Below, piece after piece: positions 13,634 to 17,693 of a DNA stretch of 64,000 bases (the stretch's first letter is position 1; every line of letters starts with the position of its first letter). The translations under genes and the position numbers were made by a program. Below the pieces are notes generated by a model. The model worked only from the letters and a program-made list of their open reading frames with translations, did no database searches and was not told the DNA's origin. The DNA lies in the NCBI RefSeq assembly GCF_020618415.1, contig NZ_CP085345.1, positions 1,674,001 through 1,738,000 on the forward strand, written 5' to 3'. This stretch comes from Cupriavidus sp. MP-37 (lineage in GTDB: Bacteria; Pseudomonadota; Gammaproteobacteria; Burkholderiales; Burkholderiaceae).

Positions 13634-14347
13634 ATGCGCGTGCTGCTGGTCGAAGACGACGCCATGATCGGCGAGAGCGTCAAGCTCGCGCTGCGCCAGG
13701 AAGGCTTTGCCGTCGATTGGGTGCGCGACGGCGACGCCGGCCTGGCCGCGGCCAGCACCGTGCAGGACGACCAGGCCTGCTACGACCTGATCCTGCTCGA
13801 CCTGGGGCTGCCGCGCCGCCCCGGCCTGGAGGTGCTGCGCGCATTGCGCGCGCGCGGCGTGCCCACGCCGGTGCTGATCCTGACCGCGCGCGACGCGGTC
13901 GCCGACCGTGTCGCCGGCCTCAATGCCGGCGCCGACGATTACCTGGTCAAGCCCTTCGACCTGCAGGAGCTGGCCGCGCGCATGCACGCGCTGGCACGCC
14001 GCGCCGCCGGGCGCGCCGAACCGCTGGTCACCTACGGCGACATCGTGCTCAATCCCGCCACGCGCGAAGCCACCTGCCGCGGCGAGCCGGTGCGGCTGTC
14101 GGCGCGCGAGTTCGCGCTGCTGTCCGCGCTGATGGCGCGCCCCGGCAAGGTGTGGTCGGTGCCGCAGCTGCAGGAGCGGCTCTATGGCTGGGACGACGAA
14201 GTCGGCAGCAATACCGTCGAGGTCTACATCCATGCGCTGCGCAAGAAGTTCGGCGCAGCGCTGATCCGCAATATCCGCGGCGTTGGCTACGTGGTACCGC
14301 GCCTTGACAGCGAAGCGGCGGCGGATGGCGACGGGGAGGGCGGCTGA
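13634..14347 (+). CDS. OmpR-family response regulator
   Basis: A 237-residue regulator. The receiver domain (residues 1-120) has acidic pocket residues D8/D9, the phosphoacceptor Asp56 in LILLDLGLP, and the lysine of DDYLVKPFD. A winged-helix DNA-binding domain follows (LSAREFALLSALMARPGKVWSV; TVEVYIHALRKKFG; IRNIRGVGYVV). It resembles the QseB/TctD group. The gene begins two bases after glk and overlaps the kinase gene by one base (tgatg). The order glk-regulator-sensor recalls glk-gltR-gltS of pseudomonads, so a role in sugar uptake or catabolism is a reasonable inference. Confidence 0.93.
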   Translation: MRVLLVEDDAMIGESVKLALRQEGFAVDWVRDGDAGLAAASTVQDDQACYDLILLDLGLPRRPGLEVLRALRARGVPTPVLILTARDAVADRVAGLNAGADDYLVKPFDLQELAARMHALARRAAGRAEPLVTYGDIVLNPATREATCRGEPVRLSAREFALLSALMARPGKVWSVPQLQERLYGWDDEVGSNTVEVYIHALRKKFGAALIRNIRGVGYVVPRLDSEAAADGDGEGG

Positions 14348-15672
14348 TGCGCTCGATCCAGCGAACGCTGCTGGGATGGCTGGCCGCCGGCCTGGTGGCC
14401 GGCATCGCCATCGCCACCGCGCTGATCTACGGGCAGGCGCGGCAGGAGGCCAATGCGCTGTTTGACTACCAGATGAAGCAGATGGCCGCGGCGCTGCCGA
14501 GCCAGTTCGCCAACCCGGTGGCGCCGCCCTTCCTCGGCGCGCCCGGCGACCTCGCGCATGCCGACGAGGACGTGGTGATCCATATCTGGGACGGCTCCGG
14601 GCGCAGCCTTTACTTGTCGCATTCGCACCCGGCGCTGCCCGCGCGCGCCGAGCTGGGTTTCTCCAACGTGACCACGCAGCAGGGCGAATGGCGCCTGTAC
14701 AGCATGCAGCTCGGGCCCGCCGTGGTGCAGATCGCGCAGCCGATGAGCGCGCGCCGCACGCTGGCCGCGCGCATGGCGCTGCGCACCGTGGCACCGCTGC
14801 TGCTGTTGCTGCCGCTGCTGGGCTGGCTGGTGTGGATGGCGGTGGGCCGCGGCCTGCGGCCGCTGCGCGAGATCGCCACCGAGGTGCGCGCGCGCGACGC
14901 CAACACGCTGGCGCCGCTGGCGGTGCGTCCGATGCCCGACGAGATCGCGCCGCTGAGCGCGGCACTGAACCAGCTGCTGGAGCGGCTCTCGCATGCCATC
15001 GACACCCAGCGCGCCTTCGTCGCCGATGCCGCGCACGCGCTGCGCACGCCGCTGACGGCACTGCAGCTGCAGGCACAGCTGGTCGAGCGCGCCGACGACG
15101 GCGCCGCGCGCGACGAAGCCATCGGCAAGCTGCGCCAGGGACTGGAGCGGCTGACCCACCTGGTCACCCAGCTGCTGACGCTGGCGCGGCAGGAACCGGG
15201 CGCGGCCGTGCCCCCGCACGAACCGGTGGAGCTGCATCAGCTGGCCGCAAGCGTGGTCGCCGACATGGCGCAGGCCGCCCTCGATCGCGACATCGACCTG
15301 GGACTGGACGGCAGCGCCGACGCCGCCCCCGCCGTGGTACGCGGCGATGCCGATGCGTTGCGCATCCTGCTGACCAACCTGCTGGACAACGCGCTGGCAT
15401 ACATCCCCGCCGGCGCACGCGTCGACGTGGCGGTGCGGCGCAGCGCCGACGGGCGCAGCGTGGAACTGGTGGTCAGCGACAACGGACCGGGCATCCCCGC
15501 CGAAGAGCGCGCGCGCGTGTTCGACCGCTTCTATCGCGTGGCCGATGCCCCGACCGGCGGCAGCGGGCTGGGGCTCGCCATCGTCGCCGAGATCGCGCAG
15601 TCGCATGGCGCCAGGGTGGTGCTGGAAGATGCGGGGCCGGGGTTGCGGGTCAGGGTGGTGTTTCCGGTTTAG
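14347..15672 (+). CDS. Sensor histidine kinase (QseC/TctE-like)
   Basis: A 441-residue membrane kinase partnered with the preceding regulator. TM1 is near residues 8-28. A periplasmic segment of ~125 residues follows, then TM2 (VAPLLLLLPLLGWLVWMAVGRGL) and a HAMP-like linker. The H-box AHALRTPLTALQLQAQL carries the phosphoacceptor His230. The N-box (LLTNLLDNALAYIP) and G-boxes (VVSDNGPGIP, GGSGLGLAIVAEIA) complete the ATPase domain. The stop overlaps that of the convergent SLOG-like gene by three bases. Confidence 0.93.
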   Translation: MRSIQRTLLGWLAAGLVAGIAIATALIYGQARQEANALFDYQMKQMAAALPSQFANPVAPPFLGAPGDLAHADEDVVIHIWDGSGRSLYLSHSHPALPARAELGFSNVTTQQGEWRLYSMQLGPAVVQIAQPMSARRTLAARMALRTVAPLLLLLPLLGWLVWMAVGRGLRPLREIATEVRARDANTLAPLAVRPMPDEIAPLSAALNQLLERLSHAIDTQRAFVADAAHALRTPLTALQLQAQLVERADDGAARDEAIGKLRQGLERLTHLVTQLLTLARQEPGAAVPPHEPVELHQLAASVVADMAQAALDRDIDLGLDGSADAAPAVVRGDADALRILLTNLLDNALAYIPAGARVDVAVRRSADGRSVELVVSDNGPGIPAEERARVFDRFYRVADAPTGGSGLGLAIVAEIAQSHGARVVLEDAGPGLRVRVVFPV

Positions 15673-16238
15673 CCCGGGTCTGCAAACATTGCGGCCTGCT
15701 CGTTCCGCAACTGACCGAAACAGGAACGCAAATCCAGTTTTTCTTGTGCCTTGCGCAAGTCCGGCGCGGCCATGAAGGAAAGCAGCCGCTCGAATTGCTC
15801 CACCCCGCGCACGGTGAGGAAGGACTTGGTCGTATTGATAAAAACGACGGAAACCTTTCTGCGCAGCAGCAACGCCATGACGTTGCGGAGCGTACCCGTG
15901 CTGCGAGCGTCCCAGATCATCAGGCCGAATTCTGCTGCCTTCGCCATCTCGACATCCTTCGCGGTGAAATAGGCGCGCGAGCCGGGCACTGCATGCGTGG
16001 CGTCGACACAAACCACTGCCCAGCCGCCGATGTTGTTGCGAGGCTTGGGCCCGCTGCAGTAGACGATGGCCTGCGCCATACCTTTGCCGCTCAGATATGC
16101 CTGGACGGAACTGTCGGCGCCGTTCGCGTCGCCCACGATCACGGTGTGGTCGCCCTCGACAATGCTATCGATGCGTGCTTTGACCCTGGGGTCGAGTTGC
16201 CCGATGCTGATCGAACCCGCAACAAAGATCTTGCTCAT
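15669..16238 (-). CDS. SLOG-like Rossmann-fold protein of unknown function
   Basis: A 189-residue protein that I do not recognise as a named family. The N-terminal strand KIFVAGSISIG, a glycine/acid loop VGDANGADSSVQAYL (residues 35-49) and a late WDARSTGTLRNVMALLLRRKVSVVFI stretch (109-134) match the layout of SLOG/LOG/DprA-type nucleotide-binding folds. In these the GxxxGAD loop and the S/T-G-T loop bind a nucleotide. It is the second gene of a pair with a phosphoribosyltransferase-like gene 10 bp upstream; gaggt precedes the ATG at 16238. A GTG nine bases earlier is an alternative start. Base composition is clearly less GC-rich than the neighbours, suggesting transfer. Confidence 0.72.
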   Translation of the reverse strand: MSKIFVAGSISIGQLDPRVKARIDSIVEGDHTVIVGDANGADSSVQAYLSGKGMAQAIVYCSGPKPRNNIGGWAVVCVDATHAVPGSRAYFTAKDVEMAKAAEFGLMIWDARSTGTLRNVMALLLRRKVSVVFINTTKSFLTVRGVEQFERLLSFMAAPDLRKAQEKLDLRSCFGQLRNEQAAMFADPG

Positions 16239-16248
16239 CCATCGCACC

Positions 16249-16827
16249 TCACCACGTTATGGTCACGACGTAGATGCCAGCAACCTTCGCGTAACCCCTC
16301 AGAACACGGCACGCTTCTTCCAACGATGCGCCCGTGTCGTACCGGTCGTCGATCAGCAACACGTTGCGGCGCGCGAATCCAGGCAACTTGTCATGCAGCG
16401 TGATCTGCCCTGCCAATGCCGCCGCGCGGGACGCTTTCGTTCCCATGTCCTTCAGGACTTGTCCTGTCAGTGCCTTGGACAAGATGCGGGAATGGACTGG
16501 CCGGCACACGATTCTACCAAGGGCAGCCGCGACCTCCAGCACAGGCTGCCGGGCGCGAAGCCGGGAGGCCGGCATCGTCACAATGCAGCCGACGTCGGCA
16601 AAGCGGGGGCAAATGCTCTCGGTGATTTGCATGGCAATGGGTTGCGCCTGGCTCCAGTCCTGTCGGTACTTCAACTGATAGAGTGCCTCGCCGGCCGGGG
16701 AGCGCTTCGTCTCGAACACCGCACGGCCCCATGCATCTTCGCCCAGATAGATGCTGCTGCGGGTGTGCTTGTCCAGAGCAAAGCCAAGATCCCAGTTTCC
16801 GTGGAGCTCCCGCACCTGCACGTCCAT
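16249..16827 (-). CDS. ComF-like phosphoribosyltransferase-domain protein
   Basis: A 192-residue protein. The PRPP-binding motif VLLIDDRYDTGAS is at 156-168. A ComF-type layout precedes it: MPASRLRARQPVLEVAAALG near 85-104, then LKDMGTKASRAAALAG. The first ~70 residues (ALDKHTRSSIYLGEDAWGR; GEALYQLKYR) are not part of classic ComF and may hold a partner or substrate site. The start at 16827 has ggggaa upstream. A longer open frame exists, but its extension is made of non-coding sequence that includes two copies of the dispersed repeat. First gene of the pair with the SLOG-like protein; lower GC than surroundings. Function unknown. Confidence 0.75.
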   Translation of the reverse strand: MDVQVRELHGNWDLGFALDKHTRSSIYLGEDAWGRAVFETKRSPAGEALYQLKYRQDWSQAQPIAMQITESICPRFADVGCIVTMPASRLRARQPVLEVAAALGRIVCRPVHSRILSKALTGQVLKDMGTKASRAAALAGQITLHDKLPGFARRNVLLIDDRYDTGASLEEACRVLRGYAKVAGIYVVTITW

Positions 16828-16998
16828 CTTGTTCCCCGGTTCATCGCGCCCAGGCCATGTTCCGGGGACGGAAGGTTCAGACCCAGGGCCAGAATCTGAA
16901 AACGGGAACGAAACACGCCGGAATCCGAATCGCTTGCTGATGCGTTTCTCAGATGCCGCGACACCGGACTTGCCAAAGGCGACTGCCCATCCATCGTT

Positions 16999-17017
16999 AC
17001 GCAGAAACGGGTACGCT
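16999..17017 (+). repeat. Dispersed ~20 bp repeat, copy 5
   Basis: Exact acgcagaaacgggtacgct, 171 bp upstream of the phosphoribosyltransferase start and in the opposite orientation to that gene. Confidence 0.8.
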
Positions 17018-17131
17018 TTGCACCTCGCAAGCCGAGGAAGCAACGCGATTGGGTGCGCCTGTTCCGCAGGAAAGCCCACCCTTATCCCGGGTCCGAAGGC
17101 GCCGCGGCATGACTTTGCCAGCCCCGCCGCA

Positions 17132-17152
17132 GCACGCAGAAACGGGTACGCT
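17132..17152 (+). repeat. Dispersed ~20 bp repeat, copy 6
   Basis: Exact gcacgcagaaacgggtacgc followed by t. It lies 85 bp upstream of yccF and points towards it; it is a direct repeat of copy 5. Confidence 0.8.
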
Positions 17153-17237
17153 TTCGCGGCGCGCGCCATTTAGCGCCATGCCGGCGCGACGCCATTGCGT
17201 ATCATGCGTGTTGTTCCCTCACTGGTGAAACGACAGC

Positions 17238-17693
17238 ATGCGCGCGATCGGCAACTTCCTCTGGTTCATCCTTGGCGGCGTGGTAATGGGCCTGGCCTGG
17301 TGGCTGGCAGGGCTGCTGGCCTTTGTCTCGATCATCGGCATTCCCTGGGGCAAGGCCTGCTTCGTGATCGGCAGCTTCACCTTCTTTCCGTTCGGCAAGC
17401 AGGCCATCAGCCGGCGCGAGCTGACCGGGCGCGACGATGTCGGCACCGGTGCGCTGGGGCTGGTCGGCAATGTGCTGTGGTTTGTCTTTGCCGGCGTGTG
17501 GCTAGCCATCGGCCACGTCATGGCGGCGGTGGCCAATTTCGTCACCATCATCGGCATCCCGTTCGCGATCCAGCATCTGAAGCTGGCCGGCATTGCGCTG
17601 GCGCCGATCGGCCAGACCGTGGTCAGCAACGAGATGGCCGACGCCGCGCGCCGCGATGGCGCGCGCGCGCAGGTGGACCACCTGCGCCGCTGA
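17238..17693 (+). CDS. yccF: YccF-family inner-membrane protein
   Basis: A 151-residue protein with the duplicated YccF domain. The first repeat is GNFLWFILGGVVMGLAWWLAGLLAFVSIIGIPWGKACF. The second is GNVLWFVFAGVWLAIGHVMAAVANFVTIIGIPFAIQHLKLA. Each has a hydrophobic hairpin ending in the IGIP motif, as in E. coli YccF. Function is not established; relatives often sit near genes of inorganic ion homeostasis. The C-terminus is charged and cytoplasmic-looking. It is monocistronic here, converging on the marR-type gene. Confidence 0.88.
   Translation: MRAIGNFLWFILGGVVMGLAWWLAGLLAFVSIIGIPWGKACFVIGSFTFFPFGKQAISRRELTGRDDVGTGALGLVGNVLWFVFAGVWLAIGHVMAAVANFVTIIGIPFAIQHLKLAGIALAPIGQTVVSNEMADAARRDGARAQVDHLRR

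Follow-up and report, generated by a model that had tools for sequence, protein, structure and literature searches.

A ComF-like phosphoribosyltransferase and a minimal SLOG protein of Cupriavidus: a probable compact relative of the ShosTA and PsyrTA toxin–antitoxin modules

ShosTA and PsyrTA pair a phosphoribosyltransferase (PRTase) with a DprA/SLOG protein, according to the sections of two papers that we draw on here (PMC9122126, PMC11878078), and DprA homologues are cited in the first of these as antitoxins in shosTA, syrTA and rqlHI. In the section used of the same paper, by Rousset et al. (PMC9122126), protection against T7 and lambda is reported for a DprA–PRTase pair carried by P2. In the portion of a review considered here (PMC12593503), ShosT is described as having phosphoribosyltransferase and pyrophosphatase activity and as disturbing purine metabolism, ShosA as an antitoxin that binds DNA, and Gp0.7 of T7 as a trigger. 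Our subject is a two-gene cassette in a 64,000-nucleotide stretch of the genome of Cupriavidus sp. MP-37 (contig NZ_CP085345.1, positions 1,674,001 to 1,738,000), referred to below as the window. Both genes lie on the minus strand. The first (16249..16827) encodes, judging from homology and predicted fold, a ComF-like phosphoribosyltransferase of 192 amino acids, a putative toxin (hereafter PRT); the second (15669..16238) encodes a minimal SLOG protein of the DprA/YpsA/ShosA fold, 189 amino acids long, a putative antitoxin and sensor (hereafter SLOG). The coordinates leave a gap of 10 bp between them (16239..16248, minus strand).

The two genes probably make up a module of toxin–antitoxin type akin to ShosTA and PsyrTA, one that probably gives abortive-infection-type protection. 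Sequence comparison suggests a compact, reverse-order, ComF-like cousin of these systems, belonging to a widespread and apparently unnamed family. The genomic evidence for the toxin–antitoxin relation is good, and that for defence is circumstantial; that PRT is toxic and SLOG counters it, that the two proteins make direct contact and that phages are held off is inferred by analogy with the described systems, as are substrate and trigger. An earlier note, made from the window alone, had called the pair an undescribed system. This went too far, as a PRTase is already combined with a DprA/SLOG protein in ShosTA and PsyrTA according to the cited parts of the papers above; what stands is that the pair is a strict member of neither. 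No publication naming the PRT–SLOG pair was found in a literature search, which subscription papers mostly lay outside.

Pairing, one-sided loss and antitoxin-type fusions

PRT and SLOG form a near-obligate pair. In a survey of 398 genomes of the phylum, the window's own included, a near-full-length PRT was detected (E <= 1.1e-34) in 7 genomes, the same 7 that carry a near-full-length SLOG match (at least 154 of 185 positions), and the two genes were adjacent, with PRT upstream, in all of them; SLOG had one further match, a fragment of 50 residues in an eighth genome. The next PRT match had an E value of 4.5e-15, and the matches listed below it were partial, as expected for ComF. Homologues occurring only as single housekeeping genes were thus not what was found, since the 7 PRTs and 7 SLOGs are adjacent pairs. 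More broadly, 636 homologues of SLOG and 328 of PRT were collected at E <= 0.001, and a scan of genome contigs with one query sequence gave 7 distant loci. When 58 loci were re-searched, both genes were present in 45, invariably on the same strand and with PRT first, the distance between the two matches being 5-53 nt. Distances among PRTs and among SLOGs were correlated across 41 distinct pairs (Mantel r 0.88; none of 2000 permutations as high).

The remaining 13 loci comprised three with a broken PRT and SLOG, five with only SLOG, one of these (L056) located at the end of its contig, and five others, namely three with an incomplete SLOG and no PRT (L051, L076, L093), one with both genes damaged (L134) and one where PRT was truncated and SLOG absent (L136). 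A full PRT without SLOG was found in none of the 58 loci; since this set was mostly collected through SLOG matches, a search starting from PRT is the fairer test. Since L056 and L076, both counted among the 58, start at the end of a contig or close to it, a missing PRT there is no evidence; L008 and L086 are the same locus, that of the window. The damaged SLOG of L134 (3332-4183) is annotated as 'TonB-dependent siderophore receptor', yet it matches the SLOG profile with an E value of 4e-51, and the name looks wrong.

In the search starting from PRT, 62 plasmid records were matched, 60 of which were listed and used; a PRT was counted as intact if it was in one piece and covered at least 80% of the query. 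Co-presence of the two genes was established by matching accessions by eye (60 of the 98 SLOG plasmid records in one listing, some of the remainder in another), and CP048525 (L133) and CP119140 (L135) were checked by profile. SLOG was present in all 51 records with an intact PRT. Among the nine with a broken PRT, seven had a full SLOG, one a damaged SLOG and one none. The seven comprise four Agrobacterium/Allorhizobium records, with PRT in two pieces, and three Enterobacter records, with PRT in two places, one of which was inspected and has an IS3-family insertion. In Rhizobium LR606149 SLOG is damaged or diverged (E 4e-51; positions 30-138). In Citrobacter braakii CP126331, which has a second PRT match at another place, PRT breaks off around residue 145-153, ahead of the loop binding phosphoribosyl pyrophosphate (PRPP) and beside an IS1 transposase, and no SLOG was found in the 10 kb inspected; the two Citrobacter records in the SLOG tally are both C. 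freundii. Conversely, about 40 of the 98 plasmid records with SLOG had no PRT match. In these records, many of which are near-copies (clonal), the intact toxin-type gene is never without SLOG, and SLOG persists without PRT, which fits the prediction for a toxin and its antidote.

Two side observations may be added. A PRT of 145 amino acids from C. taiwanensis covers 46% of the query at 88% identity and probably accompanies an intact SLOG (90% identical), as a further case of a damaged PRT next to a complete partner. SLOG also matched 18 Mesorhizobium plasmid records, and on one Mesorhizobium plasmid an unpaired SLOG (L050, 4001-4537) adjoins a RES–Xre toxin–antitoxin pair.

A DNA-binding domain on the antitoxin is usual in type II toxin–antitoxin modules. 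At least 100 residues beyond the SLOG part were present in 13 of 53 SLOGs, and all seven of these that were scanned gave a helix-turn-helix (HTH) match above curated cut-offs: TIGR02684/PF21716, 'addiction module antidote protein', in four (L046, L047, L007, L002) and PF13744 (HTH_37) in three (L040, L042, L052). At L041 a separate HTH gene follows the pair. No HTH domain was found in the window SLOG by a Pfam scan. That SLOG should carry antitoxin-type domains of two distinct kinds argues for its being the antitoxin.

These results bear on a proposal of the earlier note, in which one protein makes a ligand that the other senses. PRT would then make a nucleotide signal and SLOG would sense or process it, with a Thoeris-like logic and no toxin–antidote relation. 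However, either gene of a signalling pair should be lost equally often, and the loss is one-sided, a broken PRT with SLOG kept being seen and an intact PRT without SLOG not. Moreover, the antitoxin-type HTH domains sit on SLOG, and the neighbourhoods inspected contain no constant third effector gene. We consider this explanation quite unlikely and not the first choice; a toxin with its antidote fits both the one-sided loss and the HTH fusions better.

Folds, conserved residues and a possible mechanism

Structure prediction gave both folds with high confidence, bearing out the assignments of the earlier note. The SLOG fold matches YpsA, DprA and ShosA, and the PRT fold matches ComF and then ShosT; in Foldseek comparison with the PDB the first match of the window SLOG was ShosA (8zva), and ShosT (8zvc, 8zvd, 8zvb) was among the matches of the window PRT. 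A sequence search of PDB chains gave no useful match for SLOG and only matches to the region of the PRPP loop for PRT. The window SLOG (P0002) had no Pfam or NCBIfam match at E <= 1, a single weak PADLOC match (PDC-S02, 0.025) and a match to phrog_289 (3.1e-6). The window PRT (P0001) matched PsyrT (1.5e-7), DpdF (7.5e-4) and ShosT (about 0.0035), as well as PF00156 (1.9e-4, under the cut-off of that family) and TIGR00201 comF (4.2e-7; 30.1 bits against a cut-off of 233.55).

Alignments were made of 22 and of 70 out of 120 SLOGs, and of 24 and of 64 out of 121 PRTs. Over the smaller ones, at E <= 0.1, the PADLOC model of PsyrT matched 24 of 24 PRT members (best 4.3e-13) and that of ShosT 23 of 24 (best 1.8e-9). 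ShosA matched 2 of 22 SLOG members, the window SLOG not among them (best 4.4e-4), and PsyrA 1 of 22; two Argonaute-associated (Aga) SIR2 models matched four members each, more than ShosA or PsyrA. PF02481 and PF10686 were each found in one of the 22 (0.002 and 0.067, respectively). Pairwise profile comparison related SLOG to ShosA at 3.2e-7 and PRT to ShosT at 1.4e-5.

The PRPP-binding loop of PRT, VLLIDDRYDTGAS (16323..16361, minus strand), is intact, as had been noted earlier; D160, D161, G166 and A167 are invariant in 64 aligned PRTs, together with R91 and Q94. The strict loop pattern occurs in 38 of 41 distinct pairs, and the other three retain DD with SG or TG. In SLOG, the phosphate-type loop GDANGAD (16111..16131, minus strand) contributes G36, D37, G40 and D42 to the residues invariant in 70 aligned SLOGs, the others being P66, R67, N69 and W73. 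A further motif, STGTL, precedes an invariant Asn (N119). In LOG hydrolases the matching position is occupied by a catalytic Glu, and N119 in its place suggests that SLOG may bind rather than cleave its ligand.

In a phylogenetic tree the 22 paired PRTs formed one group (94/91), three ShosTs another (100/99) and 17 ComFs a third (91/98); the long branches leave the deep order unsure. The paired PRTs were 14 of the 121 PRT proteins and 8 divergent ones from the loci, and the reference proteins were 3 of 6 extracted ShosTs and 17 of 23 extracted ComFs, those of at least 300 amino acids or with no CxxC in the first 90 residues being left out. It is very improbable that the pair represents housekeeping competence or salvage genes, ComF with a DprA-like protein. 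Presence is sporadic (7 of 398 genomes), the window genome holds a second PRT match, as expected for its own ComF, and the PRTs, without zinc-finger cysteines, group apart from the 17 ComFs; the sporadic presence and the separate group are our grounds for rejecting a housekeeping competence pair.

By analogy with the described systems, PRT would be a toxin using PRPP. Free PRT, like ShosT, would most likely upset the PRPP/purine nucleotide pool and stop growth, and SLOG, encoded directly downstream, would be its antidote and probably a sensor, either restraining PRT or counteracting its effect. An invading phage or plasmid might act as the trigger by altering the ligand or DNA sensed by the SLOG pocket. 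Such a module would help mobile elements to persist and would probably give abortive-infection-type protection. A more specific proposal is possible, and we put it forward tentatively: beside ShosTA and PsyrTA, the pairs may represent a third family, as yet unnamed, of toxin–antitoxin defence modules built from a PRTase and a SLOG protein. Its minimal SLOG antidote would read the nucleotide that PRT makes or uses, a phage-altered PRPP/purine pool would directly free the toxin, and antitoxin-type DNA-binding domains would have been gained twice. If the toxin–antidote reading is true, a compact family would be added to the small class of nucleotide-pool toxins, and its small SLOG would offer a simpler system than the DprA-like ShosA for the restraint of a PRTase by SLOG and for sensing.

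Mobility, a possible role in defence and history of the site

Copies of the family occur on conjugative plasmids, on viral contigs, in P2-like prophages and in chromosomes, and the mobility proposed earlier was upheld. Of 98 SLOG plasmid records 55 are conjugative, and copies on plasmids are usually annotated as 'ComF family protein' and 'hypothetical protein'; 'ComF' labels on mobile elements need not imply competence. Clear defence genes were seen in 4 of 15 plasmid neighbourhoods chosen by hand (L040-L054): nucleotidyltransferase–HNH–SIR2 at L040, restriction–modification at L043 and its near-copy L053, and a DncV-like nucleotidyltransferase with patatin at L046. Viral contigs gave 22 SLOG and 9 PRT loci, and no match to the window SLOG was found in phage records. 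Ten neighbours on viral contigs were, by Pfam, five phage integrases (at four loci), one replication protein of the P2 gpA type, one AIPR, one group II intron reverse transcriptase (RT) and two without a match; by PADLOC, one scored as PDC-S06 (8e-266), one as PDC-S42 (5e-10), the intron RT on RT models, and seven on none. In E. coli the pair family was found in 8 of 5,426 genomes, seven copies being chromosomal, and the three chromosomal copies inspected are all carried by P2-like prophages, flanked by a gpD-type gene (annotated as VgrG/Pvc8 family) on one side and ogr on the other.

A role in conflict, suggested in the earlier note, is likely, and the same neighbourhoods bear on the question of defence. 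The pair might be a toxin–antitoxin module for plasmid or prophage maintenance only, with no anti-phage role, an explanation that overlaps with the preferred one except for the defence step. Copies do adjoin repA, parA/parG and parDE (L045), repA (L044) and prophage integrases. PsyrTA, in the portion of one study considered here (PMC12409345), caused a growth defect and gave no detectable protection. This weighs against the defence step of our interpretation. On the other hand, maintenance alone does not sit well with the defence-type neighbours of some copies, including AIPR and PDC-S06 besides the plasmid examples above, nor with the protection against T7 and lambda reported for the P2-borne pair in the cited section of PMC9122126. 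We therefore regard maintenance only as rather unlikely, and retain a toxin–antitoxin-type module with probable protection.

In the window, the stop codon of a sensor kinase gene (14347..15672, plus strand), a conserved landmark of the site, overlaps that of SLOG, and a YccF-like gene named by eye (17238..17693, plus strand) marks the opposite side; the overlap and the arrangement of the two minus-strand genes, 10 bp apart, agree with the earlier description. The low GC content was confirmed as well: GC is 0.620 for PRT and 0.601 for SLOG, and GC at third codon positions (GC3) 0.755 and 0.767, 2.15 to 2.69 standard deviations under the values for 51 gene proxies from the window. A search for promoter and terminator patterns gave none. 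The 13-mer GAAACGGGTACGC occurs on either strand in five window copies (6068, 7328, 13266, 17004, 17139), two of them in the stretch from the PRT start to the YccF-like gene; it is probably an interspersed extragenic repeat, and peptides of a similar repeat were seen in intergenic open reading frames of relatives.

The sensor kinase was found in 38 of 40 genomes of the genus, and 16 kinase loci, the window's own included, were inspected. The kinase–YccF interval is a variable site in the genus (15 relatives, L011-L025, against 15672-17238 of the window): it is short in seven (L011, L012, L014, L018, L019, L021, L022), contains in seven others a 2-hydroxyacid dehydrogenase that was identified by eye (L013, L015, L017, L020, L023, L024, L025), and differs in L016, with a LysR-type gene. 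In L014, whose kinase is 95% identical, the final 29 SLOG residues are retained at the same site (alignment score 86 against a maximum of 44 over 50 shuffles). In L011 a trace in the expected position did not reach significance (score 35 against 44), and the other 13 relatives aligned showed no SLOG trace at the site. Any SLOG match was found in only 1 of 35 other genomes of the genus, so that the pair is not present in all relatives and the expectation of patchy presence was borne out. That match is a lone divergent SLOG, 46% identical, at another site (L009, 1501-2040, minus strand), adjoining a GlxA/AraC-like regulator and with no PRT match within 1.5 kb. The L014 remnant and the patchy distribution show that the pair is accessory in the genus and has undergone at least one loss. 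The remnant that L014 keeps at the same place also leaves a purely recent arrival unsupported. No plasmid DNA similar to window positions 15600-17240 was found, and the best named sources of homologues are Cupriavidus taiwanensis and C. phytorum.

Comparison with known systems

The pair consists of two adjacent, co-directional genes, as expected of a protein–protein toxin–antitoxin module, and each of its proteins has described relatives from which it departs. ComF/ComFC is the closest fold and the closest profile of PRT among those compared, but PRT has no zinc-finger cysteines, with no Cys in residues 1-70, and belongs to a separate tree group. From DprA/Smf, YpsA and LOG proteins the window SLOG differs in matching no Pfam family at E <= 1, DNA_processg_A (PF02481) of DprA included. 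With HI1420-type/HigA-like antitoxins the family shares a DNA-binding domain, fused to SLOG in some relatives, whereas the window SLOG is without it and its partner is a PRTase.

PsyrTA/RqlHI combines a RecQ-like helicase–PRTase toxin with a DprA-like antitoxin. The match of PRT to the PsyrT model falls in the C-terminal part of the latter (positions 528-681 of 689), but the 192 residues of PRT have only PRTase matches, and the missing helicase rules out membership of PsyrTA.

ShosTA was compared through nine ShosT loci, found at E <= 1e-12 in a search of 247 genomes from a different family, in which 1 of the 14 control genomes matched; a ShosT search of 200 phylum genomes gave none at E <= 1e-20, nor did that search match its own controls. 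In the five loci inspected (L125, L127-L130) ShosA precedes ShosT, whereas here PRT comes first; their ShosAs have 296-335 amino acids, against 189 for SLOG. In three of them (L128-L130) the ShosA-like proteins next to ShosT no longer have the usual SGxAxGxD loop. The DprA-like antitoxin, of about 300 amino acids, has a part before the Rossmann domain that is absent from the window SLOG, which starts at the first Rossmann strand and aligns by residues 1-148 to residues 130-290 of ShosA 8zva. Gene order, SLOG size and the separate tree group of PRT rule out strict membership of ShosTA. What the pair shares with ShosTA is an organization of two genes, for a PRTase and a protein of SLOG/DprA fold whose first Foldseek match is ShosA itself, a predicted resemblance of the PRTases at the level of fold and PRPP loop, and carriage as cargo of P2-like prophages, as in the P2 hotspot pair of the cited section of PMC9122126.

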